Positions 12,322-62,192 of a DNA stretch of 64,000 nucleotides are shown here, one piece after another. The translations under genes and the position numbers were made by a program. The notes under the pieces are model-generated. The model saw nothing but the letters and a program-made list of their open reading frames with translations, had not been told where the DNA came from and did not search any database. Where the stretch lies: NCBI RefSeq assembly GCF_963675165.1, contig NC_087384.1:3122501-3186500 (forward strand), in the 5' to 3' direction. The stretch comes from Halichondria panicea (lineage: Eukaryota > Porifera > Demospongiae > Suberitida > Halichondriidae). Each line of letters opens with the position of its first letter. Positions within the stretch are counted from its first letter, which is position 1.

Positions 12322-12330
12322 CTAGAAACA
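12322..12330. repeat. Left 9-bp target-site duplication of the MULE
   Basis: CTAGAAACA lies immediately outside the left terminal inverted repeat and is identical to 21369-21377, immediately outside the right one. A 9-bp duplication is typical of Mutator-like elements. Confidence 0.9.
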
Positions 12331-12448
12331 ACAAGTGGCTAAATGCAGTACGTTAGCCTGTGTAGAAAGGGTTAAAATGACCATGAATCTCATTATAATT
12401 GCACTGTAGCTAGCCTAGGGGGCGGCTAATAATAATTATAATGTGTCG
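12331..12448 (+). repeat. Left terminal inverted repeat of the MULE
   Basis: It pairs with 21250-21368. The outer ~110 bp are nearly identical (differences are A/G near 12383 and T/C near 12405). Both repeats contain TAGCCTAGGGGGCGGCTAAT, then a short divergent stretch before GTGTCGC.CAGTCCAGCGAGTC, where the arrays begin. Confidence 0.9.
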
Positions 12449-13632
12449 CGCAGTCCAGCGAGTCTGGAGAGTCTGGAGAGTCTTAAGAGACTTGCGAGTC
12501 TGGCGAGTCCTGAGAGTCTGGAGAGTCTGGAGAGTCTAGCGAGCCCTGAGAGTCTTGAGAGTCTGGATGGAGTCTGGAGAGCCCTGAGAGCCCTGAGAGT
12601 CTAGCGAGTCCTGAGAGACTGGAGAGTCTGGAGAGTCTAGCGAGCCCTGAGAGTCTGGAGAGTCCTGCGAGTCTGGCGAGTCCTGAGAGTCTGGAGAGTC
12701 TGGAGAGTCTAGCGAGCCCTGAGAGTCTTGAGAGTCCTGAGAGTCTGGATGGAGTCTGGAGAGCCCTGAGAGTCTTGAGAGTCCTGAGAGTCTAGCGAGT
12801 CCTGAGAGACTGGAGAGTCTTGAGAGTCCTGAGAGTCTAGCGAGTCCTGAGAGACTGGAGAGTCTGGAGAGTCCTGAGAGTCTGGAGAGTCTAGCGAGCC
12901 CTGAGAGTCTTGAGAGTCCTGAGAGTCTGGAGAGTCTGGAGAGTCTGGAGTCTAGCGAGCCCTGAGAGTCTGGAGAGTCTTGAGAGTCCTGAGAGTCTAG
13001 AGAGTCTGGAGAGTGTAGCGAGCCCTGAGAGTCTGGAGAGTCTTGAGAGTCCTGAGAGTCTAGCGAGTCCTGAGAGACTGGAGAGTCTTGAGAGTCCTGA
13101 AAGTCTAGCGAGTCACGAGAGTCTGGAGAGTCTGGAGAGTCTAGCGAGTCCGGAGAGTCTGACAAGTCCTGAGAGTCTGGCGAGTCCTAAGAGTCCTGAG
13201 AGTCTGGCGAGTCCTGAGAGTCTAGCGAGTCCTGAGAGTCTGGCGAGTCCGGAGAGTCCTGAGAGTCTGGCGAGTCCTGAGAGTCTGGAGTCTAGCGAGC
13301 CCTGAGAGTCTGGAGAGTCTTGAGAGTCCTGAGAGTCTAGCGAGTCCTGAGAGACTGGAGAGTCTGGAGAGTCCTTGAGAGTTTGGGAGTCTGGAGAGTC
13401 GGAGAGTCCAGGGAGTCCTGAGAGTCCTGAGAGTCTGGAGAGTCTGGAGAGTCTAGCGAGTCCGGAGAGTCTGGCGAGTCCTGAGAGTCTGGCGAGTCCT
13501 AAGAGTCTGGCGAGTCCGGAGAGTCTGGAGAGTCTAGCGAGTCTGGAGAGTCTAGCGAGTCCGGAGAGTCCTGAGAGTCCGGAGAGTCTAGCGAGTCCTG
13601 AGAGTCCTGAGAGTCTGGTAAGTCCTAGATAA
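12449..13632 (+). repeat. Left subterminal array of 9-bp units
   Basis: About 1.2 kb of degenerate 9-mers in uninterrupted register. Common units are GAGAGTCTG, GAGAGTCCT, GAGAGTCTA, GCGAGTCCT, GCGAGTCTG and GCGAGCCCT. Because the unit is three codons long, every frame stays open and gives artefactual low-complexity ORFs (SPESLE or DSPDSQ types) on both strands. I treat these as non-coding. The right array holds the same units in reverse complement. Confidence 0.9.
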
Positions 13633-13802
13633 TGATGAGAGTCCAGAGAGTTTAGCGTGTTCTGAAAGTCTAGAGCCTGCTATAGTGTTCTCTATAGAGT
13701 AGAGTACTATGAATTCTAATCATCACAAGCACATAATAATTTCATAATAAATGGTTTTGATCAGAAAAGATATATTATTATTTTTTTTCAGACATGTATT
13801 TA

Positions 13803-16486
13803 CTATGTACAAAGGTTACAGAGAAAAGAGTTTTCGTTTACAGGTCTCCCACACAAAGTGTGGAGCCACAGATTGCACTTCGAACATTGAGCCCAATGAA
13901 CTCGATCAGATGTACCATATTGCCTGTCATCTTCTTTGTAGCAAACAACACATACATTAATGTCCACTTTAGACAGATTTTCTTTACAGTTAGCCATAGC
14001 AGCAACTGACGGTTTAGCAATCCCTGTATGTCGCGGCCTCTTGTTCTTTATTGACTGGAATCTGATTTGAGTTTCATTAAGCGCATTAGGTGAAGAACGG
14101 CTTTTGATTGGTAAGGTGGGATGCTCTTTCCTTGTTTCATATGCCTTAAGAACATTAATACCGCTTTTGATATGCTCAGTGACACTTCGAACTGCATCAT
14201 TACTGTCAGAAGATGTGAGTAGAGTGTGCAACTGGTGCAAATGATCAAATGCACTTTTCTTCAGCATATCAATTTGACCTCCAGCATTGGAGAGGATGGT
14301 ACTTAAGTGTGTAGGATCATTAATGAGGGAAATAGCTTTTTGTCTCGATTCCTCAGTGCTTATTTCAGGAGAAATGTCTGAGCCTGATGAATCATCTATA
14401 GAATTAGAAATCTCTGACCTATCCGTTTTGTCTGAAGCTGTAGTTAAAGAATGACTTTCAGTGGCTGAGTCTGCACTTGTTGCATTGTTCGTGGATTTGG
14501 CCAGAAAGCATGTAGCATGGATGTGTTTACATATTGTAGTATGTACAACCGAGTCAACACATGAACAATTGTACATGTGGATGCATACATCACATGCTGC
14601 GCACCTCAGTTTGCAAGAGAAAGGACAGGACTGATTCTCCAAATGAACAGTGTACATTCTTCCGGAGGTTGTCTGAGAACTTATCTTCCATTCTTTGTTT
14701 GAAATCGATTGGAGATGACAGCCTTCAGAAATCATCTTAGAACTTTCTTTGTGCCTTCGATTTATTTCATTAATACGATAAGTTGTTTTCCCTTTATGAA
14801 CTTTTTGTACTTGTTCAAAGGCCTTATTACGAGCAAGCTTCAAAAGAATATGTATAAGTTGATCAAGTCGTCGATTCTTCTTTCCTTCTAGATACACAAT
14901 TTTCAGTACTCGATGAAAAGATTCCAAATACATGTTTGTGTTCACAAACTTGCCTATTCTGTAACAGGTTGCCCACTCTTCCACCCTTGGCGTGTAATTT
15001 CTTTGAAAGTAAGAGCAAAATTGTGGGTGACAATTTGATAGAAAAGATACAAATTTTTGCAACAAACTTCGGAATTTGTCAGGTTGCAGTTCTGTCAGTA
15101 AAGTTCTCAAATGGTGATATACGTCAATTCGATTTTCATTGAGGGGAATACGCTCCTTAAGAGCTTTTCTCCAAGCACGATCTACGTGCCAGGCACACAG
15201 CAGTTTTGTGGTGTTGATACTGCTGTACGCAGCTGTCCAAGCACTCCAGTACTGCGTCGCATCATCTGACATGAACACTTGTGTGGAAAGGGGACCAGTT
15301 CTTTTCCTCAATTCTAGGAAAAAATAGGCCAGCATACAAGTGTCTTCTCGTGTAGTTATAGCCCACGCAACTGGAATTCCTTCCCCAAAATCGTCAACTA
15401 CCATAACAGTTACCAGCAGGTATTCGTAATAATTAGTTGAATGGGTGGCATCTACACAAATTACATTTCCTCCAAAAGCTTTCATCATCTCGAGCTGAAA
15501 CTGGGTTTGAAGTGCCAACAAAAAATCGTTGTCTTTCACTCCTTCTCTTTCACTAGACACCCCTTGCGGTTTGAAAGCAATAACTGGACAAAATTCCATG
15601 CTTTTCAGCTCTTCGACCCATGCAGCAACACTTGTGTAGTCGTTTGAGTGCTTTTGTACTCCATCCACATTGCACACTCTTTTGATATTCTGGATATCTT
15701 TTTTTGTGCTATGATGACACCGTTTCAGGCCACCTTCATCGACACTGTCTCTAATGTCATCTAGAATTCGATCTATCGTCACCCCTTGCAACAGTTTGTT
15801 GGATACAGCTAGCTTGAAGTCCTTAGGGAGTCGTAAATGCATTACATCTTCTTCTGGAGTGTGGCCATAATGCGTGGAACAAAAGTTAACCAGCACATTT
15901 CCTCCTGTGTGCTGACTTACAATTAGGTGAGCTGTACAGTAGACACCTAATTTTTCCGAGCCCTGCAACTTCGAATTTCTGAGGCCTTTTGTGGTTGATC
16001 TAGATTTTCCTGATCTGTTACAATAGTAGTACCAAGTACGTACTCCACAGCGGACACGGGATCCACACGGCTGCACATACTGTGTGTAGGTTCGAGTTTC
16101 TTCACCCTCCTTCCATCTTAAAAACTCTGAAAAGCCAGAAAACTCGTGTTTCTCTGTACAAACAGTTGTTTCGTGAGCTTGTGTTAGATGTTGGATCAAC
16201 TCTTGCACGGAACGAAATCTGTAAGAAAGAAACTAATAATAATGTGGAAGTTGCAGTTGCATGATCTGGTAATCATGTGCCATTAAGTATTCAATCGATC
16301 TAACCTGGAGTCACAAGTAATACAGCAGATATATCCAATTTCTGATGTTTCTTGTGAAGAGATTTCTTGGGTCAGATCTAGACTCTTCCCTAGAGCCTTT
16401 TCTCTGTGTTGCTTCCTTACATGTCGAGCTAGACTACTGCTGTGTGCATAACTGCTTGAGCAAGACTTGCAAATATAGAGCGACAT
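13803..16486 (-). CDS. MULE-family transposase with C2H2, SWIM and PHD fingers
   Basis: Two exons (16486-16305 and 16218-13803, an 86-bp GT-AG intron) encode 865 residues. The splice is supported because it rebuilds a C2H2 finger across the junction (C55, C58, H71, H76); the first finger is C6, C9, H22, H27. The central MULE/DDE core has D317 in ICVDATHS, D379/D380 in FMSDDATQY, then CAWHVDRAW with the usual C/H pair, and E493 in NMYLESFHR as the likely third acid. A SWIM finger follows (C612, C614, C624, H626), then an acidic Ser/Thr-rich linker and a C-terminal PHD finger (about 813-865, CVVC..CSKC..HTLC..CNLC). The role is cut-and-paste transposition of this element. The start codon lies 202 bp from that of the ATPase on the other strand. 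The frame is intact. The SWIM finger is usual in MULEs; the paired C2H2 and PHD modules are less so. Confidence 0.93.
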
Positions 16487-16688
16487 TGAGCCAAATCCAG
16501 AATATTATACACAGAGCAAACTATGATTTTGTTGAGACTTCTCCCGCTTGTTCAGGCTATTATAGACTGTAATTATGTACAGCGCATGCGCGTAACCAAG
16601 TATTAATTTCGCTGCGGCCTAATTGTTGTTCCAAAGAAGAACCAGTTCGAAGAACAAGCTCATCATTGTATCATTGTGCCATATAACC
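16487..16688. promoter_or_regulatory. Internal bidirectional promoter of the MULE
   Basis: The 202 bp between the divergent start codons contain GCGCATGCGC at 16582-16591, a perfect palindrome matching the NRF1 core that also occurs near host promoters in this window. Promoter function is inferred from position. Confidence 0.55.
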
Positions 16689-19600
16689 ATGTGTGCATCA
16701 CGAGAGACTGATGGAGACAGCAGTAGTATTTTCGGGGATTCTAATTCCACAAGCTCACAGGTGAGCATGCAGAGCTCACATTTCATTGCACATATTAATT
16801 GTTGAAGCCACATGCAGTTTGAGAAAATTCAGTTTAATTATTGTGCTGCATGTATATTCTTTCAGGATTCTGGAAAGGGAGAATTTTTTATTAATTGGGA
16901 ACTCGGAACTGCTGGGAAATCAGCAAAAGGAGAAGATAAGGCCATGTGTGATTTTGCAGTCAGGCTGAAGACACTAGTGGAAGCGAGAGAATTGACTGGG
17001 TTTTACTGTGAAGTGAAACGCGAAATGGATGGTGTTAGCAGGTACATCTAACCCTCCCTCTAACTATATACAGTTAATTACAGCACATGTGACACACCTT
17101 GTAGCTTGTTAAGTGCATGGGTGTGCAATACCTCAATCTGTATAATATACTGCATACATCTTGTATGTATACATACTTTATCTTTGAGGGATTTGTATAA
17201 TTATAGCTGGTATACTGCATGGGTATTTCCATTTTCCATTATAGTGCAATAAAAATTATTAAAACATACTTTCCACTGACTTATAGCTCATGTGCCTATA
17301 AATGATATTAAAAATGTAGAGTTTGGAACCCACAAATAAGTATAGTTGTGGTTCCAACAATAGGCTGAAGTTGTGACTGTGGGATATCTGATATCACTAG
17401 AGCATAGTTTTCTCACATCATATTTCTACTGTCATGTGTGCAGAAAAATATTATTGTTTTAGAGCACATGCAGGACGTGCTACCAATGCAATATGCTACT
17501 AAACTGATCATTTGTTTCAAACATGCAGGAGATGTTTCTTCACAAGTGACTCTGCAAACCAGAAAGTAAAGTTCATCAGCCAGCTGAACAAGTCTTTTGG
17601 GAGCGGTGGTGGATTCACTTGTGCTTTTTCAGACTCCGAACTCACCAGATTTCTCCAGTTTCTCAAACGAGAGCATGCTTCGGATATTAAGATCTCCAAG
17701 GGAACCACCGTTATAGGATGCCAGCCTGGTAGCGATGTATGGGTGTTTGGTGATGACATCCATATCAAGTCTAACGGAGAGTGCATATCTGCAACGGAAA
17801 GTCCCTATGTGTGGTCACCCAATTGCATAATGGCACAGTGTGACAAAGTCAGCTTCAATGAGCTTGTGCCGAAACTTTCCATCCAAAGCAGCTCAATGGA
17901 ACCTTTGAAGGATCTCCTCGACGGCCTACAGATAGCCACCAAGCACAATTATCCGCGTGCTCTCCTTGTTCTTGGTGGAACCATAATGTCTTGTCACTAC
18001 ACCCACATTGCTGCGAAGTATGGAGGATTTCCAATTGTGCTTGCTGTCGGACCAACTGAGACTGGCAAGTCAACTGCTCTAAAGGCTGCCCTGAGTATTT
18101 TTGGGATGGCCAAAGATGCCTTTTACGTTGAAGGTTCCAATGCTTATTTTATGGAAAGAAGTGCCCTCTCGTGTATGCCATATGGTATTGATGAGGCCAC
18201 TGCACACAGCAAGCAGTTGGATGTTGTCAAGCTCATTGTTGACCTTCATGGAGCGGCTAAAACAGCCAATTTGCGTCGTGGTGCGTTTCTTCCACTGTCT
18301 GTACCTGTCATAGCAACCAATGACAAATTGAAGGATGATCCAAGGTGTGTACATAATTAGAATGTTATACACCACAATTTTCATATAATTATATACAGCT
18401 ATATATACCTGCACTTTAAACTTTAATCACAGAGTGAAGAGCAGATGTGTGGAAATTTCCTTCCGAAGGCCAAAAGTTGGTCCCTCTACCGTTGAGGAAA
18501 GAAAGTCGAGACGTGACTTAGAGAGTTCAATCATTAATGGAACGCCTTCTGGCATTCTTCACTGGGTGATTTCTCTAAGACAAGACCTCGAAAGAGATGG
18601 AGAGGCAGAGGTGGAGAGGATTTTGCAGCAGATCCTTCAGCTGCCTCAGTTTAGTGAACAACCCAGACTAGCGCAAAGCTGGGCTCTTATTCTTTACTTT
18701 ACATTCAAGGTAAGTTTATTAATTAGTGCGCATTTGTTGATTGTTATTGAACCATACATGAAATCAAGATGGTACGTGCCTGTGGGAAGGATGAGCTGGA
18801 GAATGAAATAATGGCGTGTGTAACTCTAAATAGCACTGCAACTGAGGAAGGTACTGACAAAACTAGTTCTCTTGAAAGTGTTGTGACTGACACAGTCAGG
18901 GAAGTGCTTGAGTACTGCAATGGAAAAGTCATAAGACAGGTAATAATACTGTTAGTAATTGAGTGTGCTGTGGTGATACCTAATTCCACTTGCATGGTTT
19001 CTGTTTACTTAATTAAAGGTGTTTCTAACCACTCATAGTGGTGCTCTGAATGGCTTGCACTCTTACATAATAATATGCATACACTGTAACATACATATAT
19101 ATATACAGGTACTCACCTTTGTCAGAACAAGGTTGATGGTAAGCAACCAAGAAGTTGTGGCAATCCATCTTTCTCACAACGGGCTGAAATTTACTCATTC
19201 CCTTGATGAAATTAGAAATGCTGTCGACCAACTGGAGTGGGGGAAAGGCACGGACAGCAAAGATTTCCTGAATCCTACCAAACATAGTGGGACGTTAATA
19301 AATAGGAAAACAAGTGATCGCGTAAGAGCTGCCAACATCTTTCTTAACAAACTTCCTAAAAATCTTCACGATGTACTTAGAAGGGGTAAGTTTGTCTTTA
19401 CCTATTTTGTTTATAGTATCAGTGTCACAGAATAAACATTGTGTACACATGCAGTGACCGACCCTGAGACTCCATTGGCTGAAGTAATTAAGTGTGGGCT
19501 GGAAGTGGCTGAAAAAACTCCATGCAGTGAGGAAGAGGAAAACAGTGGGTCAGGCTTAACTACTGAAACAGAAGCTGTCGATGGGGACAAGAAACATGCT

Positions 19601-19744
19601 ACTGTAACAACATCACTGACTGAAACAGACGGTACATCTACTGATGGATCTGTCGATGATGGGGACAAGAAACGTGCTACAAGATCCTCGACTATTGTGC
19701 CTCCTTTTTCCAAAAGACTTTGCAAGGGGAACAATATTTACTAA
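16689..19744 (+). CDS. Transposon-borne P-loop ATPase, DUF927/AAA+-like
   Basis: Seven exons (16689-16760, 16866-17041, 17529-18344, 18433-18709, 18769-18939, 19109-19385, 19455-19744) join in frame to 692 residues. Walker A is GPTETGKST at 257-265, preceded by the hydrophobic strand FPIVLAV. A Walker B-like acidic pair is D304/E305 in MPYGIDEAT, and VPVIATND supplies a sensor-1-type Asn at 347. An Arg-rich segment (RVKSRCVEISFRRP) follows in the position where arginine fingers occur. The layout resembles DUF927/SF3-type helicase ATPases, but family membership is an inference. The N-terminal 24 residues are Ser-rich, and the C-terminal ~100 residues are acidic with two DGDKK motifs and a final KRATRS...KRLCK that could be a nuclear signal. 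The exon 5 acceptor (AAATCAAG) is weak. It is probably a second transposition protein; cargo is the alternative. Confidence 0.8.
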
Positions 19745-19872
19745 CAATACTGGTTGAATATTATTCAGTGCGCTAAATTATATATAAGTGCACAAAATGT
19801 GTTGTTTTGTTATAATCAATCTGTTGTCGTTACGTTCTACCATGCATGCATTGAATTGACAAATTTAATTAT

Positions 19873-21249
19873 AAGACTAACTCGACTCAGCAGACTCGCT
19901 AGACTCTCCAGACTCTCCAGACTCTCCGGACTCTCCAGACTCTCCAGACTCTCAGGACTCTCCAGACTCTCCGGACTCACTAGACTCTCCAGACTCTCGG
20001 GACTCTCGGGACTCTCAGGACTCGCTAGACTCGCAGGACTATAGCTAGACTCGCAGGACTCTCAAGACTCTCCAGACTCGCAGGACTCTCCAGACTCTCT
20101 AGACTCGCAGGACTCTCAGGACACTCAGGGCTCTCCGGACTCTCAGGACTCCCAGACTCTCAGGACTCTCAGGACTTGCCAGACTCTCAGGACTCTCCAG
20201 ACTCGCAGGACTCTCAGGACTCGCCAGACTCGCCAGACTCTCAGGGCTCTCCAGACTCGCCAGACTCTCAGGACTTGCCAGACTCGCAGGACTCTCCAGA
20301 CTCTCAGGACTCTCAGGGCTCTCCAGACTCTCCGGACTCTCCGGACTCGCTAGCCTCGATCCCAGGCCGAGTTTTCGCTTTTATAACGGTTAGGCAAACA
20401 ACTGGTTGTTCGCCTAACCGTTATAAAAGCGAAAACTCGGCCTGGGATCGAGGCTACGGACTCGCCAGACTCTCCAGACTCCCAGGGCTCTCCAGACTCT
20501 CAGGACTCTCAAGACTCTCCAGACTCTCAGGACTCGCTAGACTCTCCAGACTCTCGGGACTCTCAGGACTCTCAGGACTCGCTAGACTCTCTGGACTATA
20601 GCTAGACTCGCAGGACTCTCCAGACTCGCAGGACTCTCAGGACACTCAGGGCTCTCCGGACTCTCAGGACTCCCAGACTCTCAGGACTCTCAGGACTCGC
20701 TAGACTCTCCGGACTATAGCTAGACTCGCAGGACTCTCCAGACTCGCAGGACTCTCAGGACACTCAGGGCTCTCCGGACTCTCAGGACTCCCAGACTCTC
20801 AGGACTCTCAGGACTTGCCAGACTCTCAGGACTCTCCAGACTCGCAGGACTCTCAGGACTCGCCAGACTCTCCAGACTCCCAGGGCTCTCCAGACTCGCC
20901 AGACTCTCAGGACTTGCCAGACTCGCAGGACTCTCCAGACTCTCAGGACTCTCAGGGCTCTCCAGACTCTCCGGACTCTCCGGACTCGCCAGACTCTCCA
21001 GACTCCCAGGGCTCTCCAGACTCTCAGGAATCTCCAGACTCTCCAGACTCTCAGGACTCGCTAGACTCTCCAGACTCTCAGGACTCGCCAGACTCTCAGG
21101 ACTCTCCGGACTCTCCAGACTCCCAGGACTCTCAGGGCTCTCCGGACTCTCCAGATTCTCCAGACTCGCAGGACTCGCAGGACTTGCAGGACTCTCCAGA
21201 CTCCCAGGACTCCTCAGGGCTCCTCAGGGCCAGGACTCGCTGGACTGTG
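19873..21249 (-). repeat. Right subterminal array of 9-bp units
   Basis: About 1.37 kb of GACTCTCCA, GACTCTCAG, GACTCGCCA and GACTCGCAG units, the reverse complement of the left array. Higher-order duplication is visible: a ~90-bp block containing ACACTCAGGGCTCTCCGGAC recurs near 20,115, 20,640 and 20,760. One MITE (20351-20456) is inserted without breaking the 9-bp register outside its duplication. Long open frames here are artefacts of the 9-bp period. Confidence 0.9.
20351..20456. mobile_element. 106-bp near-perfect palindromic MITE in the right array
   Basis: The two arms (TAGCCTCGATCCCAGGCC... and its complement) pair almost completely around a short loop of AACTGGTT type. It is flanked by CGGACTCGC at 20342-20350 and again at 20457-20465, a 9-bp target duplication. 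Related copies are at 31908-31965 and, degraded, at about 745-797. Confidence 0.88.
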
Positions 21250-21368
21250 CGACACAGCGTATTCGTTTATTAGCCGCCCCCTAGGCTAGCTACGGTGCAA
21301 TTATAATGAGATTCACGGTCATTTTAACCCTTTCTACACAGGCTAACGTACTGCATTTAGCCACTTGT
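21250..21368 (-). repeat. Right terminal inverted repeat of the MULE
   Basis: It is the reverse complement of 12331-12448 and ends GCATTTAGCCACTTGT directly before the duplication. The innermost ~20 bp differ from the left copy. Confidence 0.9.
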
Positions 21369-21377
21369 CTAGAAACA
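21369..21377. repeat. Right 9-bp target-site duplication of the MULE
   Basis: CTAGAAACA, identical to 12322-12330. Confidence 0.9.
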
Positions 21378-26196: not shown

Positions 26197-28029
26197 CTAC
26201 ACTAGTGTATAGGTGATTAGGTGTGTTGGGTAAGCCATGTCTAGCTTGTATACAACGAATATGTCACTACCACCGCTATGATGAGCACTGACAGAATCGT
26301 AGCGTTTGTGTGAGCCTGGTTTAAGTGGTGGCATCGTAAGTGATTTGTCCTCTTTGTCCATCAAGCAGGTTTCACCAGTTAGAACAGAAGCGAGAAAAAT
26401 TTGTTTGTGACCATTCTGGTCTTTGTAACTGAAATGATTTGAAAAACTAGCTTTTACAGCAAAATACGCTCCCTTTCCCCACAGTCCACCATCAGAGAAC
26501 CGAAAGTCAAACCCTTCATCCGATTCATAGATCTTCACTGGTGGTGTTTTAAGACTACCATGGAACAACTTTTTTTCATTTAAAGGTTTGCCCTTCTCTT
26601 GCATTTTTTGCATTCTATGAGCATATTCGTCGTAGATATTCTTATTTTCAATCCTGTCGATGGAGATAAGAGTTGCCTGTGGCATTGTGGCATGAAATAA
26701 ACAATCAATGTCATTCCATTCTTCACTTGATCGATATACTTCTGATTTAAAAACGTTAGGGGTCAAAGCCCATGTAGGGGGATATTGAATGCATTTGGCA
26801 TTGGTTTGCACACTGACAGGGATTTGAGTGCTGGTTATTGGCCTAGTCGCCGTAGTGGCTTGGCTGTCCTTAGGTGGCATCAGCCGTGTCAGCAGTGACA
26901 CTCTTTTACATGATTTTTTATGAAAGTTTATGCTAGCTCTCTTGGCAGCTTCTGGATCACTGAAGTTGATGTATGCGTGAGGTGGGTCACCATTAGTAAC
27001 AACATGCAGAGATGTAATTTCACCATATGGACAAAACAAAAGGCATAACTTTTCCTTGTTTAGCTGCCCATTCAACATGCTAACCTTAACGGTTTTAGGT
27101 TCTGGGGAGGTTTGCACACTGACAGGGATTTGAGTGCTGGTTATTGGCCTAGTCATCCTAGTGGCTTGGCTGTCCTTAGGTGGCATCAGTCGTGTTAGGA
27201 GTGACATTCCGTTACTACACGATTGCTTATGAACTTTTATGCTAGCTCTCTTGGCAGCGTCTGGGTCATTGAAATCGACGTATGCGTGAGGTGGGTCACC
27301 ACCAGTAACAATATGCAGAGATGTAATTTCACCATATGGACAAAACAAAAGGCGTAACTCTTCCTTGTTTAGCTGTCCATTGATCATACTAACTTTAACG
27401 GTTTTAGGGTCTGGAGAGGTTTGCACAGGGATTTGAGTGGTTATTGGCCTATTTATCCTAGTGGCTTGGCTGTCTTTAGGTGGCATCAGCCGTGTCAGGA
27501 GTGACACTCCATTATGAACTTGACACGATTCTTTGTGAAAGTTTATACTAGCTCTCTTGGCAGCGTCTGGATCATTGAAGTTGATGTATGCGTGAGGTGG
27601 GTCACCATCAGTAGCAACATACAGATATATAATATCACCGTATTGACAAAACAAAAGGCGTAACTCTTCCTTGTTTAGTTGTCCATTGATCATGCTAACT
27701 TTAACTGTGTTAGGTTCTGGGGTGATGAGAGAGGTTTGCACAGGGATTTGAGTGCTGTCTATTGGCCCTGAGTGCCTATACACCTGAATACGAAATCCTT
27801 CAACTTTCTGATTTCTATCCCTGTATGCAGCAGAAGCTGCTTCACTTGTTTTGAAGGTGACATAGGTACCATGACTGAGAGTTGTTTGATGAGGATTGAA
27901 ATACGGTTGTGAAATGCGAAATACATCACCAAATCGAGAAAAGTGTTGTCGCAAGTCGTCTGACTTTATATTTTCGAACATCAAAACCTTGATAGATCTA
28001 CAGTTAGAATAGTGAGGCGGAGTCGCCAT
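26197..28029 (-). CDS. RRM-repeat mono-ADP-ribosyltransferase, PARP10/14-like (copy A)
   Basis: A single-exon frame of 610 residues. Four RRM-like domains (roughly 11-85, 105-185, 205-285, 305-390) precede an ART/PARP catalytic domain (about 415-610). Repeats 2-4 are nearly identical (KTVKVSM.NGQLNKE.L.LLF.YGEI), joined by a Thr/Pro linker containing PPKDSQAT, so they arose by recent internal duplication. The ART domain shows the triad His in KLFHGS, Tyr in GKGAYFAVKAS, and Leu in YPTHLITY where poly-ADP-ribosylating PARPs carry Glu. This H-Y-L signature is the one described for mono-ADP-ribosylating PARP14-type enzymes. No macrodomain or WWE domain is present. It is a sister copy of the gene at 32455-33660. 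A role in stress or antiviral mono-ADP-ribosylation is inferred from family knowledge. Confidence 0.9.
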   Translation of the reverse strand: MATPPHYSNCRSIKVLMFENIKSDDLRQHFSRFGDVFRISQPYFNPHQTTLSHGTYVTFKTSEAASAAYRDRNQKVEGFRIQVYRHSGPIDSTQIPVQTSLITPEPNTVKVSMINGQLNKEELRLLFCQYGDIIYLYVATDGDPPHAYINFNDPDAAKRASINFHKESCQVHNGVSLLTRLMPPKDSQATRINRPITTQIPVQTSPDPKTVKVSMINGQLNKEELRLLFCPYGEITSLHIVTGGDPPHAYVDFNDPDAAKRASIKVHKQSCSNGMSLLTRLMPPKDSQATRMTRPITSTQIPVSVQTSPEPKTVKVSMLNGQLNKEKLCLLFCPYGEITSLHVVTNGDPPHAYINFSDPEAAKRASINFHKKSCKRVSLLTRLMPPKDSQATTATRPITSTQIPVSVQTNAKCIQYPPTWALTPNVFKSEVYRSSEEWNDIDCLFHATMPQATLISIDRIENKNIYDEYAHRMQKMQEKGKPLNEKKLFHGSLKTPPVKIYESDEGFDFRFSDGGLWGKGAYFAVKASFSNHFSYKDQNGHKQIFLASVLTGETCLMDKEDKSLTMPPLKPGSHKRYDSVSAHHSGGSDIFVVYKLDMAYPTHLITYTLV

Positions 28030-28393
28030 AATCTTAAAATCAGGAACACTCTGAACTAGATGTGCTGAACTTCTTAGGCATGATTCAGCAAAAAATACGA
28101 ATTGTATTCACGTCCCATCGTCCCATGACCATAATACATAGGAGGGCGGAACCAACTGACTGTATAGTTAATTCATAATGGTATTATAATTAAGGTCACG
28201 CAGTAGGCTGTGAAATAAAGCAACTCCAGAATGTCTATTTTAAGTATAAAGGTCATCTTTAAATCGGACAAGATTATAGGATTATAGACTCGCTAGACAG
28301 CCATTATAATAACAGGGCATGCATAATTATTGGTTACCGGAAAAGACAAACTGTTCAAGACAGAGAAATATTAGACTAAGACAATCACCACTT

Positions 28394-28915
28394 TTAATAA
28401 TGAAAGCACCGCGGGTGCTGATGCCTCGGTGGAGATGCCAAAACTACATAACAAAAAGCTGCTTTTATACACATGACATGATGAACAATTAATTTTGCTG
28501 CATGCAAACTCAAGGAGTTAAAAACGATCGATGCCAAAAGTTCAAGTCTAAAATTAATGGCATTAGCAGAGCCTTGCAGCACTCTTCTCACTCTTGCAGC
28601 TACCAATAGCTAGCGTTCTAGTGCAGGGCTAACTACTAAGTAGAGTAGCAACACTCGGTAAACAAGTTTGGCTACGTGCTCTTCTGAAAAGGCTGCAATG
28701 GCGTTCCAAGTAAGCAAAACTAGGCATAACTCGAGAACGAAGCATTATTTTGCAAATCCACGAATTAAAATCCAAGTAAACATGACTAGAAGCCTATAGA
28801 AACTCTTACTTGCACTTGATTCATCCTTGCGCAGCTGTAGCAGTCTACACACACACACAAACACACTACCGTATACCTCGCTTGCGCATGCGCACCGAGG
28901 CATAATAACATAATT
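28394..28915 (+). repeat. Dispersed ~500-bp repeat, copy 2
   Basis: It runs from AATGAAAGCACCGCGGGTGC to GCGCATGCGCACCGAGGCAT. The same ordered blocks recur at 30095-30520 and, on the opposite strand, at 45560-46150 and 46340-46935. It contains a CA-rich segment just before the GCGCATGCGC box. It has no transposase or convincing inverted ends; I class it as a non-autonomous interspersed repeat. Confidence 0.7.
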
Positions 28916-29303
28916 TCCTAAGTAAGTCATTTTTAAAAGCTTCTAGGAGCAGACATGCACAGAGTCAATGCTTGGTTGTATAGTTGGTTCTATAGTTGAG
29001 CTGTGCTTTCATACTACATCAACCATTATTAATTTTATCATACTAATTAAGCTACCAATACGTACCTATATGATTAGTCTCGCGAGCAGACATTGGGGGA
29101 GAGTCCCTCTAGGAAAAGTCATGCTCATGAGACTAACTTATGATGTATAAATATCTGACGACGCATATTTAACCATTATTTTGTGAGTGGATAGAGGTTA
29201 ATTAATGTGAGTGAATTGACCCTGCCTGTAATCTGTTTTTATCCATACCATGCAACGTACAATATAATTATTATTTTCTTTTTCTTAATATTATTATAGT
29301 GGC

Positions 29304-29613
29304 GCTTATGTTCTACAGCTATAGTATAGAATTTGCAGATAAAATGGGCGTGGTCTAGCTCAGTTTCACTAGCTAGCTTACACTGTTGAGAGCTGACTGA
29401 CTCGTGAACAACGTTCGTTGACTGTAGCTATGTTATTTTTTCTGACGCTTAAAAAAAGGCTTGTTTGAGACATCAAAACAATCATCCTGCATCTTTGACC
29501 TACAGCTACAGTCAATAAATGTTATTTATGAGTCACTCATGCTTTCAACGGTGCAGCTAGACCACGCCCATTTTCTCTACAAATTCTATACTATATAGCT
29601 GTAGAACATAAGC
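29304..29613. mobile_element. Foldback MITE with GCTTATGTTCTACAGCTAT ends
   Basis: The outer ~60 bp are inverted repeats, including AAAATGGGCGTGGTCTAGCT and its complement. The interior has no ORF. The right end is followed by a repeat shared with about 11510-11640. Confidence 0.6.
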
Positions 29614-30094
29614 ACCACCACAATTTAGGCACCAGCTAGTCTGAACGCATTTTTTTGTGTTCTAAAGATGCGCCACTCAGAAGTGAAATCAATTTTTTCT
29701 GGCACTGTAATTACATCAATTATGGTACTGTATACCTCGCTTGCACATTTGCACCGATGCAGACCGATGTAAGTAAATAATCAAGGACAGTTAAAGGATT
29801 AAAAGATTAAAAAAATGGGCAAAGGAATACACAAAACCAGGGTCTACAAAATTAATGGTTTATGATGTTATGTGTAACTTGTGTTGGCCCTTACTCTGCT
29901 TGTAAATTTTACCATGCTTGCCCATGAACAGTCATGGATTTAGGATAATAATAGATGCTTAAGTAGTTACGCCTCGGGACATAGCCGCAGGAGGTAATGT
30001 ATGGTAAAACAGACCGGGTGTGTATTCCAGCTGTAACTGTTCAACGGATACAATAATTATAGCTTTTATACACAAATTATATCCTGATGAACAT

Positions 30095-30520
30095 TTTTGT
30101 TTTGCTGCATGCAAACTCAAAGAGTGGGTAAATTAATGATCGACCATGATTGTGTTAAAACGATAGATGCCCAAAGTACAAGTCTAAATTAATGGCGCAG
30201 CAGAGCCTTGCAGCTACCAATAGCTAGCGTTCTAGTGCAGAGCGAACTACTAAGTAGTAGCAACACTCAGTGAACAAGTGTTACTACACACTCTTCTGAA
30301 AAGGCTGCAATGTAAGCAAAACTAGGCATAACTCGAGAACGAAGCATTATTTTACAAATCCACGAATCAATATCCAAGAAAACATTACTAGAAGCCTATA
30401 AAAACTCTTACTTGCACTTGATTCATCCTTGCGCAGCTGTAGCAGTCTACACACACACGCAGACACACAAACACACTACCGTATACCTCACTTGCGCATG
30501 CGCACTGAAGCTTAAGACAT
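30095..30520 (+). repeat. Dispersed ~500-bp repeat, copy 3
   Basis: Same order of blocks as 28394-28915, with small deletions in the centre and the CA-rich segment plus GCGCATGCGCACTGA at the right end. Confidence 0.65.
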
Positions 30521-30637
30521 GACTCTGTAACATAAACACACAGTATAGGGACTGTATGACATCAAGGGCATATAAATAGAAGTGGGCATGCAACTCACTA
30601 TCTATCCTAGGTACTCGGTAAAATTCATATCAGAGAC

Positions 30638-30981
30638 TAGATGGGTGTGGCCCGCCTCCAAAAAGGGAGACGGGTTGCAGCCCTATCTAGCATTCGTTCT
30701 TACTGCAGAAAAACATGCAGCACCAATCAGATTGCAGACTGCCTACATTACATAAGCAGTTTGCATTCAGGAATGCATATGCACCAATCAGATTGTATAA
30801 CCCTTACGTAATGCATTTTTGTTAGCTTCCCAGCCCCTCCCCTCTCTGCAGCAAGCTGAGCTTTGTGGTTAGAGGCGCGGCTAATATTAATGATTTCATA
30901 GTTAGTACGCGATGCAGCAGAACGAATGCTAGATAGGGCTGCAACCCGTCTCCCTTTTTGGAGGCGGGCCACGCCCATCTA
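30638..30981. mobile_element. 344-bp MITE with 9-bp TSD
   Basis: A ~63-bp inverted repeat starts TAGATGGGTGTGGCCCGCC (left) and TAGATGGGCGTGGCCCGCC (right, reverse strand). It is flanked by ATCAGAGAC at 30629-30637 and 30982-30990. Non-coding. It is the second MITE in this window with TAG..CTA ends and a 9-bp duplication. Confidence 0.88.
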
Positions 30982-31228
30982 ATCAGAGACAGGATACAAT
31001 AACTAGAATCCAGACATGTACTGGCAAAAGTTAATGGTTCGCTCTGCACCTAAAAATAGTAACCACAAGAATTTTGCTGAGTCTGAGAATATCGTGTAGA
31101 GGGTATAAACTTTCGCGTTGACCATTAGAAAGGTTTTCGCGGAATAGCAGCCTGTGACCTTCAGGGCCACCGTACTTTATGCAGCATGCAACATGGTATC
31201 ATGATAATTAATTATGCACCTGTAATTA

Positions 31229-31454
31229 TAACGTATGGAGGGAAATTTTCGCTATTTGGCTCCACAGCCCTCAGCAGAAATGTTCGTGGGTTCTGATATT
31301 CGCGGTTCAATGCCAGGAAACCACACCCACCAATAACTTTGCATATGGAAATACTCTGCGTGGGAGTTTATCCAGTTTTTAATTTTTGCGTTACTACTCT
31401 GCCCTCGAAAAACGCGAAATTTTGCACCCCACGAAAATGTCCCGCTATACGGTA
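31229..31454. mobile_element. TACCGTATAGC-family MITE
   Basis: The right end CCCGCTATACGGTA is clear; the left end (TAACGTATGGAGGGAAATTT) is diverged. It shares TTTGGCTCCA.AGCCCTCAGC with the copy at 63340-63549. Confidence 0.6.
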
Positions 31455-31639
31455 ACTGATATTTCATTTTGGGAAGATCACCTGACATATTGAGCCATGC
31501 CAACTTAGTAATAGCACCATCAGCAATAAAGTGAAGGCAATCAGGAGACGTACTGCATGGTAACTACATTTCATTTGTTAACAGGTATTATGCTAACTCT
31601 GTTGTGGGTCCACCAACCTACACCCTCAACACCAATCAC

Positions 31640-32070
31640 CACTCCCCCTCACTGATGTCCACCATAAAATCTACCTCTACTGCACTGCACGAATACACAT
31701 GCACCCTTGCAGGCCAGGTCCTCTGTAACCACTCCCTAAACCCTCACTGATGTCCACCATAAAATCTACCTCTACTGCACTGCACAAATACACACCCTTG
31801 CAGGCCAGGTCCTCTGTAACCACTCCCTAAACCCTCACTGATGTCCACCATAAAATCTACCTCTACTGCACTGCACGAATACACACCCTTGCAGGCCAGG
31901 TCCTCTGTAGCCTCGAGACCACGCCGATTAAAATACGAATTTTAATCGGCCTGGTCTCGAGGCTAGGAGGTCCTCTGTAACCACTCCCTAAACCCTCACT
32001 GATGTCCACCATAAAATCTACCTCTACTGCACGAATACACACCCTTGCAGGCCAGGTCCTCTGTAACCTT
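31640..32070 (+). repeat. ~93-bp minisatellite, about four units
   Basis: Units begin CTCACTGATGTCCACCATAA and end GGCCAGGTCCTCTGTAACC. The third unit is interrupted by the palindromic MITE at 31908-31965. Confidence 0.8.
31908..31965. mobile_element. 58-bp palindromic MITE in the minisatellite
   Basis: TAGCCTCGAGACC at the left and GGTCTCGAGGCTA at the right pair around an AATACGAATTTTA core. AGGTCCTCTG lies directly left and recurs on the right after two extra bases, so the duplication is imperfect. It belongs to the family at 20351-20456. Confidence 0.7.
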
Positions 32071-32454
32071 ATTATAGACAAGATCAACCAACTAACTCTG
32101 CAGCTTGACACCTTAGACGTAGGTCACGCTCATGTCATGCAGAAGCTATAATTAAGCTATGACTTTAAGGTATAATTATAAACATGCACATAGAAGACAA
32201 GAGTACTTTAATTACCAAATGCTGTCTACATCAGCCATGTACCATGCATGCATGGCATGACGCCCAACAGGGTACGATTGCATTTAGGTCTTGTAACTCT
32301 TTTGTCTTGAACATGAATAATTATAATCTATCTCTAAGTAATATATAGCTATAATGATAAAAAATGTTATGTTATCTGTTACTATAGTTCGATTTACTTT
32401 CGAAGATGTATGACAGGTGTTTACTCAGACAGTATGATTACAAGTGTTCCTATA

Positions 32455-33660
32455 CTACGGCAGTGTATAGGTGATTAGGTGTGTTGGGTAAGCCATGTCT
32501 AGCTTGTATATAACGAATATGTCACTACCACCGCTATGATGAGCACTGACAGAATCGTAGCGTTTGTTTGAGCCTGGTTTAAGTGGTGGCATCGTAAGTG
32601 ATTTGTCCTCCTTGTCTATCCAGCATGTCTCACCAGTTAGAACAGAAGCGAGAAAAATTTGTTTGTGACCATTCTGGTCTTTGTAACTGAAATGATTTGA
32701 AAAACTAGCTTTTACAGCAAAATACGCTCCCTTTCCCCACAGTCCACCATCAGAGAACCGAAAGTCAAACCCTTCATCCGATTCATAGATCTTCACTGGT
32801 GGTGTTTTAAGACTACCATGGAACAGCTTCTTTTCGTTTAAAGGTTTGCCTTTCTTTTGCATTTTTTTCATTGTATGTGCATATTCGTCATACATAGTCT
32901 TATTTTCAATCCTGTCGATGGAAATAAGAGCTGCTTGTGGCATTGTGGCATGAAATAAATAATCAATGTCATTCCATTCTTCACTTGATCGATATACTTC
33001 TGATTTAAAAACGTTAGGGGTCAAAGCCCATGTAGGGGGATATTGAATGCATTTGGCATCTGGTAATGTTCGAAGAGCAGCTGCAGGTACTATTCGTGGA
33101 GCAGCCATTCTAGTGGCCTGGCTGTGTAGGCGTGCCAAGAGTAACACTCCACTATGTATTTTATTATGAAGTTTTATGCTAGCTCTCTTGGCAGCGTCTG
33201 GATCAATGAAGTTGATGTATGCGTAAGGTGGGTTACCATCAGTAACAACACGCAGAGACATAATTTCACCATATGGATGAAACAAAAGGCGTAACTCTTC
33301 CTTGTTTAGCTGTCCACTCATCATGCTAACTTTAACGGTGTTAGGTTCTGGGGTGATGAGAGAGGTTTGCACAGGGATTTGAGTGCTGTCTATTGGCCCT
33401 GAGTGCCTATACACATGAATAAGAAATCCTTCAACTTTCTGATTTCTATCCCTGTATGCAGCAGAAGCTGCTTCACTTGTTTTGAAGGTGACATAGGTGC
33501 CATGACTGAGAGTTGTTTGCTGAGGATTGAAATACGGTTGTGAAATGCAAAATACCTCACCAAATCGAGAAAAGTGTTGTCGCAAGTAGTCTGATTTTAT
33601 ATTTCCAAACATCAAAACCTTGATAGATCTACAGTCAGAATAGTGAGGCAGAGTTGCCAT
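32455..33660 (-). CDS. RRM mono-ADP-ribosyltransferase, PARP10/14-like (copy B)
   Basis: A single-exon frame of 401 residues, near-identical to copy A at both ends, with only two RRM-like domains (about 11-85 and 105-185) before the ART domain (about 205-401). The same H (KLFHGS), Y (GAYFAVKAS) and Leu (YPTHLITY) signature is present. The 3' flank (GTGTATAGGTGATTAGGTGT) also matches copy A, so this is a segmental duplication. Either B lost two RRM units or A gained them; the high similarity among A's repeats favours gain in A. Several substitutions (DCLFHAT to DYLFHAT, CLMDKED to CWIDKED) show the copies are diverging but both remain open. Confidence 0.9.
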   Translation of the reverse strand: MATLPHYSDCRSIKVLMFGNIKSDYLRQHFSRFGEVFCISQPYFNPQQTTLSHGTYVTFKTSEAASAAYRDRNQKVEGFLIHVYRHSGPIDSTQIPVQTSLITPEPNTVKVSMMSGQLNKEELRLLFHPYGEIMSLRVVTDGNPPYAYINFIDPDAAKRASIKLHNKIHSGVLLLARLHSQATRMAAPRIVPAAALRTLPDAKCIQYPPTWALTPNVFKSEVYRSSEEWNDIDYLFHATMPQAALISIDRIENKTMYDEYAHTMKKMQKKGKPLNEKKLFHGSLKTPPVKIYESDEGFDFRFSDGGLWGKGAYFAVKASFSNHFSYKDQNGHKQIFLASVLTGETCWIDKEDKSLTMPPLKPGSNKRYDSVSAHHSGGSDIFVIYKLDMAYPTHLITYTLP

Positions 33661-35425
33661 AATCCTGATTCAGAACTCTATAATAATGTATAATTATACT
33701 GTACTGTGTAGCTGGCTTGGAATAACTTCTTTGGTATGATTCAGCAAATTCTCGAAATATGAATACTTCAGAATAGTATTCATATCTATCTATCTGTCCC
33801 ATGGCCATATATAGATCTAGACGTGACATTGTCATATCAGGAGTACATGAATATTCATGTACTCCTGGTAATACTGCTACACTTACCATTTGAATGGCTG
33901 CCCTATTGGCAGTAAAGTGCATGAAATACGTAGCGAAATTCACAAAGTTAATCCCTCGAAAATGACCAGCTAGGTGAGTATCACCGTGTGGTACTAAGTA
34001 AATAGTCAGTAAGTCACATACATACATACTGTACATACATGTTAGAACACCTAATGTGGTCCACGAGTAGAGGAGGTTTGCCACGCGTCATCATACACGT
34101 GACATTCCTAACGTTTTCTGCTCACGTTATCGTAGATACTGAACAACTGTAAAAGTTATGGCTATCTTGCTTTACTGAGTGTCAGAATGGAGGGAATCTC
34201 TGGAGATCGGGTTGGTTAATGAAAGCTCTATATTCGAAGTAGCCAAATTAAGAGTCATGCACATAATGCTAGGCATACCTTATAATTGTTATGTAAGCTA
34301 CTACAGAGATATATATGAGCATGTACTCCTCGTGTTACTGATAATGTAATTATTACCGTGTACGTAGCACTTAATGTTCGAGGTGTTTAATTTTCGCTGT
34401 TTTCAAGGGTTATAGTAATCGGTCATGAAAATTGTTCCACAAACATATTATATACATGTACATGTAGTAACGGCGGATGCAATGTGCACTGACATACTGC
34501 ATAGCGCGAATTATTTAACGAAACAGCAATTCCACGAAATAACCGTGGCCCTTACCTTGAATCTAATGACTAATTTTGCGGGTTCTTGTCTCGAGGATAA
34601 TGATTGAAGGATAATGAATCATTCTGCTCTCTATTTAAGGATAATCCAACTACACGCAAAACGTCATATCCAGCCATAATAAACATTGAAAACCTAGTTT
34701 AGGGCAGCCAGCACTGGCCAGTATACGGAATAGCGAGTGGTCATGCAGTAAACATCTAGCTAGCAATCCGTGCCAAACCAAATGGCCGGTATATCGAGGT
34801 GGCCCTACTTCAGAGAGCAATAGCGAGAGTCTACTGTTATGATGAATCACTATACCACATACTTCTTCTAAATAAGGCGCCGCTTTTTTAATAATTACGC
34901 TTTCGAGGCAGTGTATGCAAAAGCAAGAAATAGCCAATGAATTTATATGGTGCCTTATGGGAGAAATATCCAGGTGGCGCCTTATTAGAAGGGGGCGTCT
35001 TCTCACTAATCCAGCTCTCTGATTTACGGTCACCTTGCTATTCCGACAATATTTTTTGAATGGCGCATAATACGGCCGGACCCGACATTATGGGCGTGGT
35101 TTTTGCAAATAAGAGAGCATGATGATTCATTATCCTCGAGACAGAATCGCTAAATGAGCTATTGGGTTGAGGCTACCTAGACTAACGAGAGTCCACTGCA
35201 TGTATACATGTACTTGTGAATATACAGGCATCCATCTAAAGAATGGTAAGACAGTATGACCACCTCAAGTCATACAATGGTTATCTTTTGTTGTACAATA
35301 TTGTCATGAATCAGCAAATGTCCTATCACAAAAGGATTCATAACTACAATTCCTAGAAAGAAAAATAAACCCTATCAAATACATGTATATCTCACGATTT
35401 TCCATAACAACCACACCAGTTCCAA
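33661..35425. other. Intergenic region with foldback elements
   Basis: It contains a ~30-bp perfect palindrome (CAGGAGTACATGAATATTCA and beyond) at about 33838-33867, and a foldback element at 34588-35142. I saw no convincing gene; the 149-aa and 127-aa frames look like chance. Confidence 0.45.
34588..35142. mobile_element. Foldback MITE with GTCTCGAGGATAATGA ends
   Basis: About 30 bp of imperfect inverted repeat at the two ends (GTCTCGAGGATAATG and its complement). An internal GGAATAGCGAG..CCTTGCTATTCCG pair resembles sequence near 63815. Non-coding. Confidence 0.5.
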
Positions 35426-37324: not shown

Positions 37325-37773
37325 GCTAGTGTGTGCATAAGTGTGGGTCCGGGTATATATGTCATATACGGTGTATCGACAGTTAAGTTGCCAACATTCA
37401 TAGATTATGCCAGCCTATGGAATAATAATGATACTGTGCAGTCTACCTTGATGGTTAAATGAGTCTTCAGCAAGACTTGATGGCTGTGACTATAAAACAA
37501 CTGCAACACTGGACTGGACAAACAACTTAACTCGCAAGAGCAGCATGGGTGCAAAAAGTACAAAGGGGTTTGACCCTGGATGACATAACATGATTTGATG
37601 TTAACTAAAGGGAATTCCCCTGGGAAATGCCAGATAGAGTATTAAGTAACACGAAGTAGTTACTATATCTATGCACGAATCCTCTCTTCTAGCTAGCTAC
37701 TGCGTACCGTACCGGTGGTGCTGTGTGCTCAAATCTACGATTTAAGGATCAGTCTTATAAATTGACTACATCT
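37325..37773. promoter_or_regulatory. Shared upstream region of VKORC1 and the RRM-WWE-ART gene
   Basis: 449 bp between divergent start codons. No TATA box or NRF1-like palindrome was found. Confidence 0.35.
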
Positions 37774-62003: not shown

Positions 62004-62192
62004 CTTGGTAGATTTTGCTGAGTTAGCTAGTTAAACCTGAGGGGAAGATCCCTATTTAAATTGCTACTCAATCGTGGTGATGTAATATTAAGATCTCAGA
62101 TCTATCTCCCTTTCTTGTCAGATCAGAGAAAAGTCTGGACAAAGCTTTAAATTCCTACAGTCGATCAGCAGTTGGTACCTTTGGATAGAAGT
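62004..62192. promoter_or_regulatory. Shared upstream region of the membrane protein and caspase-like genes
   Basis: 189 bp between divergent start codons, the shortest such gap in the window. A CCCTATTTAAATTG stretch at 62049-62062 is TATA-like. Confidence 0.45.

Follow-up and report, generated by a model that had tools for sequence, protein, structure and literature searches.

A Rehavkus/Foldback-like MULE with inverted 9-bp terminal arrays and a companion putative ATPase gene in the sponge Halichondria panicea

Introduction

Foldback-type transposons, of which Drosophila FB is one, have long inverted ends made of short tandem repeats, and MuB and TnsC are bacterial transposition ATPases of the AAA+ kind that act on target DNA. 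We analysed a stretch of 64,000 bp from the genome of the sponge Halichondria panicea (NC_087384.1, positions 3,122,501 to 3,186,500; hereafter the window), in which a Mutator-like element (MULE) of 9,038 bp, at window positions 12331-21368, carries such ends together with two divergent genes, one for a transposase and the other for a putative ATPase. To our knowledge no ATPase is known from Galileo, no P-loop ATPase from VANDAL elements and no arrays of the type found in the window from the MuB/TnsC systems.

The closest known kind is Rehavkus. Rehavkus elements have duplications of 9 bp, a minisatellite and a transposase with a PHD finger, and Rehavkus-1_TC, described along with Rehavkus-1_HR, is 9.5 kb long with 164-bp satellite units in its inverted termini (PMC6446971, PMC10218199); one open reading frame and arthropod and annelid hosts are listed (PMC6446971, Table 1). 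The window element shares with them the 9-bp duplication and the terminal minisatellite, and its transposase has a possible PHD-like finger, whereas, in a comparison made by description only, it differs by its second gene and its 9-bp units. Because of the second gene we call the element Rehavkus-like and do not file it as a member, although it is doubtful that a single reading frame is a defining trait of Rehavkus.

The Foldback elements Tm1 and Tetris have been placed with Mutator (PMC3169594, PMC4079207). Tm1, from root-knot nematodes, has duplications of 8-10 bp, mostly 9 bp, and tandem repeats inside its terminal repeats (PMC3169594), while Tetris has duplications of 8-10 bp and three complete copies that are non-coding (PMC4079207). 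The duplications of about 9 bp are thus common to these elements and to ours, and Tm1 also has terminal tandem repeats as the window element does; in contrast, Tm1 has units of 13-15 bp and a coding element with a 496-aa (amino acid) product (PMC3169594, in whose main text the word "ATPase" does not occur), and the window element has 9-bp units and an ATPase gene.

Two further systems join repeated terminal or internal words with a protein that reads them. The THAP transposase of Galileo, which belongs to the P superfamily and hence to another transposase superfamily than the MULE described here, binds several sites in the long repetitive ends; in the same paper the tandem repeats of Foldback and Phantom are called untested as binding sites (PMC3688188). 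VANC is a MULE-borne protein that co-evolves with a tandem-repeated word (PMC5735166); VANDAL elements are therefore comparable to ours as MULEs with a second protein, one that reads a short word within tandem repeats peculiar to each family, but they are plant elements and VANC is an anti-silencing protein. A search of PMC13359780 for tandem repeat, minisatellite and ATPase gives no match, and the two mentions of ATPase found in passages of PMC6431247 both concern other element types.

A first-pass annotation, made by a model from the DNA letters alone, had considered the whole layout foreign to established families. This does not hold for the kilobase inverted minisatellites, which are known from Rehavkus and Foldback/Tm1, but it does for the pairing of a MULE transposase with such an ATPase, which was not found among literature titles and abstract openings (most subscription papers and Repbase Reports lie outside that scope). 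As far as the literature searched goes, the companion ATPase is new to us, and it is recurrent.

Borders, copies and empty sites

The element is a genuine, complete and recently mobile Rehavkus/Foldback-like MULE, whose type of ends is already known. A perfect 9-bp duplication, CTAGAAACA, stands on both sides of it, and its left and right terminal inverted repeats align over 102 bp with 2 mismatches. A search of the 131-Mb assembly with the first 120 bases of the element returned 17 places, namely the ends of seven two-ended copies (A to G, A being the window copy), one truncated copy on C12 and the two tips of a miniature on C16. The two-ended copies are 7,633 to 13,652 bp long, a spread due to internal deletions in C and F and insertions in B and E, and the core DNA of the other six is 98.7-99.84% identical to that of the window copy over long aligned stretches. 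Duplications measure 9 bp in A, D, E, F and G and 8 bp in C, and B has none; duplications of 8-9 bp in six of the seven two-ended copies, joined to terminal inverted repeats, agree with what defines the MULE superfamily (8-10 bp). Seven two-ended copies, together with an array pattern counted only inside the family (see below), show that the element is not a product of chance, and we consider the identity of 12331-21368 as a transposon practically certain.

For the empty sites, flanks of each copy were joined with one copy of the duplication, and 40 of 2,203 candidates were scored. Near-identical paralogous empty sites were obtained for four copies: at least 12 places at 99-100% for E, at least one at 100% for F, at least one at 99% and at least four at 80-94% for C, and at least six at 94-99% for G (unbroken matches; the best are 99-100% over 280-284 bp for E, F, C and G). 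They confirm where these four copies begin and end and how long their duplications are, and short duplications with empty sites fit a cut-and-paste mechanism, which is well supported. Among the candidates scored there was no empty site for A, B or D. The first-pass annotation had proposed a search for further duplicated copies, whose lack would have refuted it, and for empty sites, and had suspected recent activity; the copies, their identity and the sites of E, F, C and G bear this out, while for the window copy itself no empty site is among the scored candidates.

Some derivatives deserve mention. The miniature (C16:1621032-1621098) is 67 bp long, consists of the two terminal-repeat tips only, flanked by an 8-bp duplication, GAAAATGA, and is a minimal derivative or an abortive-repair product. 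Copy E (C9:2860408-2874059) holds a nested insertion of ~4.1 kb with a 17-bp-period array of its own (GTTGCATCT words); stretches of 1,098 and 617 bp in it share 93% identity with a locus that has the ATPase and a PHD-like finger (L046), and the insertion accordingly looks like a member of a related family, L046's, shortened by internal deletion. Copies B and E have in common an insertion of ~440 bp in the transposase gene, a passenger with CAGGGGCGG/CCGCCCCTG ends that looks like a miniature inverted-repeat transposable element (MITE).

The transposase gene

Both gene models are predictions drawn by eye; the two frames, of 865 aa for the transposase and 692 aa for the ATPase, run without internal stop, so that the description of a complete two-gene MULE with intact divergent frames stands. 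The 202 bp between the two start codons presumably form a shared bidirectional promoter.

The 865-aa protein matches the Pfam MULE transposase domain at 3e-11 (44.1 bits, cut-off 27.6) and the related ZSWIM1-3 RNase-H domain at 1.1e-10, and it starts with two C2H2 fingers (Pfam zf-C2H2_4, 4.3e-6). Residues D317, D379, C402AWH405 (CxxH) and E493 follow D-D-(C/D)xxH-E, the MULE pattern; the roles of the D/E residues and of a SWIM-like finger near residue 612 are assigned by motif. A putative PHD-like finger lies at the C-terminus (817-864), its C4HC3 spacing fitting by eye; with the C-terminus cut out, Pfam gave Znf_SCAND3 at 7e-5 and PHD at 6.4e-4 (20.1 bits, cut-off 24), both below their cut-offs, and PHD is not listed for the whole protein.

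Of the seven copies, only A and D keep the transposase frame open. B, C, E and G have the same two frame-breaking indels in exon 2, a loss of 11 bases and a gain of 4, but they lie apart in the genome, and all of them except B have duplications. These copies therefore probably represent a subfamily that spread with a broken transposase and was moved in trans. C and F have a broken ATPase frame, whereas in A, B, D, E and G this frame is open, so both genes are open in A and D.

The companion ATPase gene

The 692-aa protein is encoded by seven exons separated by six GT-AG introns. It has a Walker A motif (GPTETGKST, at 257); the residues IDE at 303-305 resemble a Walker B motif, N347 is of the sensor type, and the C-terminal tail is, by eye, repetitive and basic. 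Profile matches are weak: DUF927 was found with three of seven aligned rows (best 1.8e-4), the row of family T reaching 21.7 bits where the curated cut-off is 22.6, and no match in the genome exceeds that cut-off; PHROG 8841 (DNA primase/helicase) matches at 1.8e-4 and PHROG 1139 (DNA primase) with four of seven rows. NCBIfam gave no match near its cut-offs. The element recalls MuB and TnsC in holding a transposase and a putative AAA+ ATPase together, although no MuB or TnsC profile appears among the profile matches of the ATPase.

Outside the genome, one of 72,556 plasmid records matches the ATPase exon, a hypothetical protein of 1,158 aa from the Nostoc plasmid NZ_CP091920.1 (E 2e-5; 22% identity over 81% of the exon, 23% over 231 aligned positions), which itself has no Pfam match at 0.01. 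This match is a hint of a prokaryotic source of the ATPase. Phage records gave four weak matches, the best at E 0.09, and no relative of the exon appeared in the viral and genome contig collections, where the searches reach close relatives only. No solved structure matched the exon, and the alignment returned only Cubilin, at E 0.19 and outside the P-loop. We tentatively classify the protein as AAA+/SF3-like (SF3, helicase superfamily 3), which is not proven.

The same matches allow a different picture, in which the protein would be a replicative helicase of SF3 type and the terminal arrays would be origin-like, the element multiplying extrachromosomally, as a replicon, before it inserts. The PHROG 8841/1139 and DUF927 matches and the Nostoc plasmid protein are in keeping with it, as is the fit, by eye, of GPxxTGKS and the sensor-type N to SF3. 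Even so we hold it to be quite improbable: no other gene is recognised in the element, its short duplications and empty sites agree with cut-and-paste, and the Nostoc protein has no Pfam match of its own.

Terminal arrays and related loci

Inside each end of the element there is an array of 9-bp units, the two being inverted with respect to each other, as had been noticed at first sight. The two arrays contain 109 and 112 exact GAGTC cores, with 85 and 87 successive spacings of 9 bp, and the top-ranked inverted block pair of the two arrays is 343 bp long and 82% complementary. Arrays of ~1.1-1.35 kb are present at both ends of all seven copies, with ~130 bp between the left end and the start of the array. 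A pattern of three successive units was counted 432 times across the assembly, of which 429 belong to the seven copies and 3 to the truncated one; as all counts fall within the family, the array is a private mark of it, and the structure corresponds to that of Foldback elements. A palindrome within the right array is probably a MITE-like insertion.

Two other explanations of the arrays were discarded. They are not a host satellite, the 432 counts of the assembly being those of the family. Nor do they code for protein: units of 9 bp leave frames open by arithmetic, and the units of family Q are a mixture of 8 and 9 bp.

Several families of the genome have the ATPase beside arrays of other words. 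J (C12:1777432-1789279, 11,848 bp), with a duplication of 9 bp, repeats the divergent gene layout of the window element, and the word of its inverted arrays measures 10/20 bp; its transposase is 36% and its ATPase core exon 39% identical to those of the window. Q (C1, ~14 kb) has an 8-bp duplication, the ATPase and inverted arrays, 2 and 3.4 kb long, whose word is of 8/9 bp, and encodes a different protein, of 903 aa, with matches below cut-off to otubain (0.002) and OTU (0.11) and, by eye, a CXC motif; an OTU domain is listed for MuDR-6_HM (PMC6446971, Table 1), which we take as a lead only. In T (C1) the ATPase lies beside a 38%-identical relative of this 903-aa protein, and its inverted arrays, of another 9-bp word, measure >6 kb and 1.8 kb, the left one running past the fetched stretch. 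The two genes of T are separated by a further transposon-like stretch lying between 33-bp inverted repeats and P-element-like by eye (L038/L036). The protein of Q and T shows a D-D-DxxH-E pattern by eye; in its alignment with the window transposase, itself not significant (see below), the register agrees, and one of its two rows matches the helix-turn-helix model of ISL3 transposases (0.0029). U (C10) has the ATPase and, on one side, a 0.6-kb array whose word resembles that of Q; assembly searches with both transposase types listed neither of them adjoining it.

K and L (L020 2663-8992, L021 2122-8463), 99.8% identical, are MULEs that lack arrays and whose second gene is ubiquitin-hydrolase-like. 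In K two pieces of it match ubiquitin hydrolase (2.2e-6 and 1.5e-6), and L has both with 100% identity.

Association of arrays and ATPase

Ten lineages or loci with the ATPase (A, J, Q, T, U, N, O, R, S and Y, which are those read and form part of the ATPase matches in the assembly) were compared with six MULE loci of five lineages (K, L, M, V, W and X) in which seven ATPase relatives find no match at E 0.01; arrays were counted from 450 bp upwards. Five of the ten (A, J, Q, T and U) have such arrays, which in A, J, Q and T are made of the same word in opposite orientation at both ends, and none of the six has one. ATPase-plus and ATPase-minus members are mixed in a tree of seven transposases, J standing with M and A near K/L and N/O; the support of the J-M branch is 91/91, below the starred level. 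We consider the association between arrays and ATPase suggestive, not proven.

A small sample, with three ATPase loci lacking arrays and two having weak ones, would also be compatible with a coincidence, in which any short word near foldback ends grows by slippage and unequal exchange; such ends are believed to have independent origins in separate lineages of transposons (PMC4079207). Passive growth seems unlikely to us, since it sits poorly with the opposite pairing of same-word arrays in four families, with their similar length in the seven copies, and with a presence that tracks the ATPase in five lineages and an absence that tracks its absence in six loci.

A number of observations weigh against a link of the arrays with the ATPase and against the role proposed for them in the next section. 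The array of U is on one side only, and with words similar to those of Q and an ATPase 61% identical to that of Q (339 aligned positions) the two families are not independent. N and O have weak short periodic stretches only, and R, S and Y show no array in their partly fetched flanks, the transposase-like gene of R having stops and S being a fragment. On the other side of the comparison, a very divergent ATPase could escape the search in the six loci; a short patch of 8-bp period lies at the fetched edge of V, V, W and X are the three read out of 19 further MULE matches, K and L count as one recent family, and M is without clear ends. The conflict between the ATPase and transposase trees is not significant (p 0.057). 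The homology of the Q/T protein with the window transposase is not significant either (hhalign probability 1.9%, E 0.026), and the protein has no Pfam transposase match at the curated cut-off. Constraint on the ATPase does not reach significance (5 nonsynonymous and 6 synonymous changes, p 0.057), and as the same bias is seen in the subfamily whose transposase is frameshifted (6 and 8, p 0.020), the selection test does not single out the ATPase. A single-sequence model of ATPase exon 3 had a pLDDT of 38.9, too poor for a fold search. Moreover, recency alone could explain why the arrays are kept across copies.

A possible role of the arrays

We propose, giving it about one chance in two, that the arrays would be an element-specific landing platform, most likely for a complex of the ATPase. 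That they are functional and act as putative protein-binding platforms appears rather probable; that the ATPase, rather than the transposase alone, may be their partner is our leading guess, put forward tentatively. In the proposed order of events the transposase would cut at the 102-bp ends and then paste the element, and the kilobase arrays just inside each end would offer a private, multivalent landing platform on which the AAA+-type ATPase, probably with the transposase, may assemble in an ATP-dependent manner. This assembly would pair both ends and confine the reaction to members of the same family or, alternatively, hold the ends open against host silencing, and each lineage would evolve its own word together with its own ATPase.

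The partner of the arrays might instead be the transposase, its own DNA-binding fingers occupying them in the manner of Galileo, with the ATPase doing something unrelated such as replication or being a selfish passenger. The two N-terminal C2H2 fingers suit this possibility, and the THAP domain of Galileo does bind repeated sites in long ends (PMC3688188). However, K and L, which belong to the same transposase lineage and are without the ATPase, have no arrays, though K keeps N-terminal finger-like motifs (by eye), and arrays with the ATPase are also found beside a different, transposase-like protein; we therefore regard it as somewhat unlikely.

An anti-silencing role has less to recommend it in our judgement. 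Here the ATPase, like VANC, would bind the array words to keep the element transcribable and would be dispensable for cutting and joining. VANC binds a short motif in fast-changing tandem repeats, and its variable parts contain peptide repeats (PMC5735166); the word and, by eye, the repetitive tail of the ATPase likewise differ among the families studied here. Against this, the motifs of VANC are spread over various non-coding parts including introns (PMC5735166), whereas the long arrays of our element occupy its two ends.

Returning to the landing platform, a bolder and rather doubtful extension is that the ATPase and the inverted arrays would form one exchangeable module for ATP-driven, word-specific recognition of ends. 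Within this genome such a module may have joined transposases of at least two types, acquiring a new word of 8-10 bp on each occasion, and may be lost together with the arrays when a MULE gains another second gene, e.g. a deubiquitinase. If the ATPase reads the arrays, MULEs would have a dedicated AAA+ partner with a role comparable to that of MuB/TnsC or VANC, and the private array would explain why recognition stays confined to copies of one family. As several families of the genome have the same layout with different words, a swap of specificity could show which protein reads the arrays.

Feature coordinates and neighbouring genes

Table 1. Features of the element in the window (position 1 is the first base of the window).
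Feature	Position	Strand	Remarks
Left target-site duplication	12322..12330		CTAGAAACA
Left terminal inverted repeat	12331..12432	+	102 bp; found in seven two-ended copies
Left array	12460..13651	+	9-bp units with a GAGTC core, mostly followed by YKGM; reads inward
Transposase gene	13803..16486	-	865 aa; exons 16486-16305, 16218-13803; gene model by eye
Spacer between the two start codons	16487..16688		202 bp
ATPase gene	16689..19744	+	692 aa; exons 16689-16760, 16866-17041, 17529-18344, 18433-18709, 18769-18939, 19109-19385, 19455-19744
Right array	19891..21212	-	same 9-bp unit, opposite orientation
Palindrome	20353..20454		102 bp, 98/102 positions self-complementary; nested in right array
Right terminal inverted repeat	21267..21368	-	
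Right target-site duplication	21369..21377		CTAGAAACA

The window also holds three PARP genes with RRM domains, one of them with WWE (26197-40697), the first of which contains a 306-bp repeat in 3 copies, and a gene with a caspase domain (62172-63272; Peptidase_C14, 1.5e-21).

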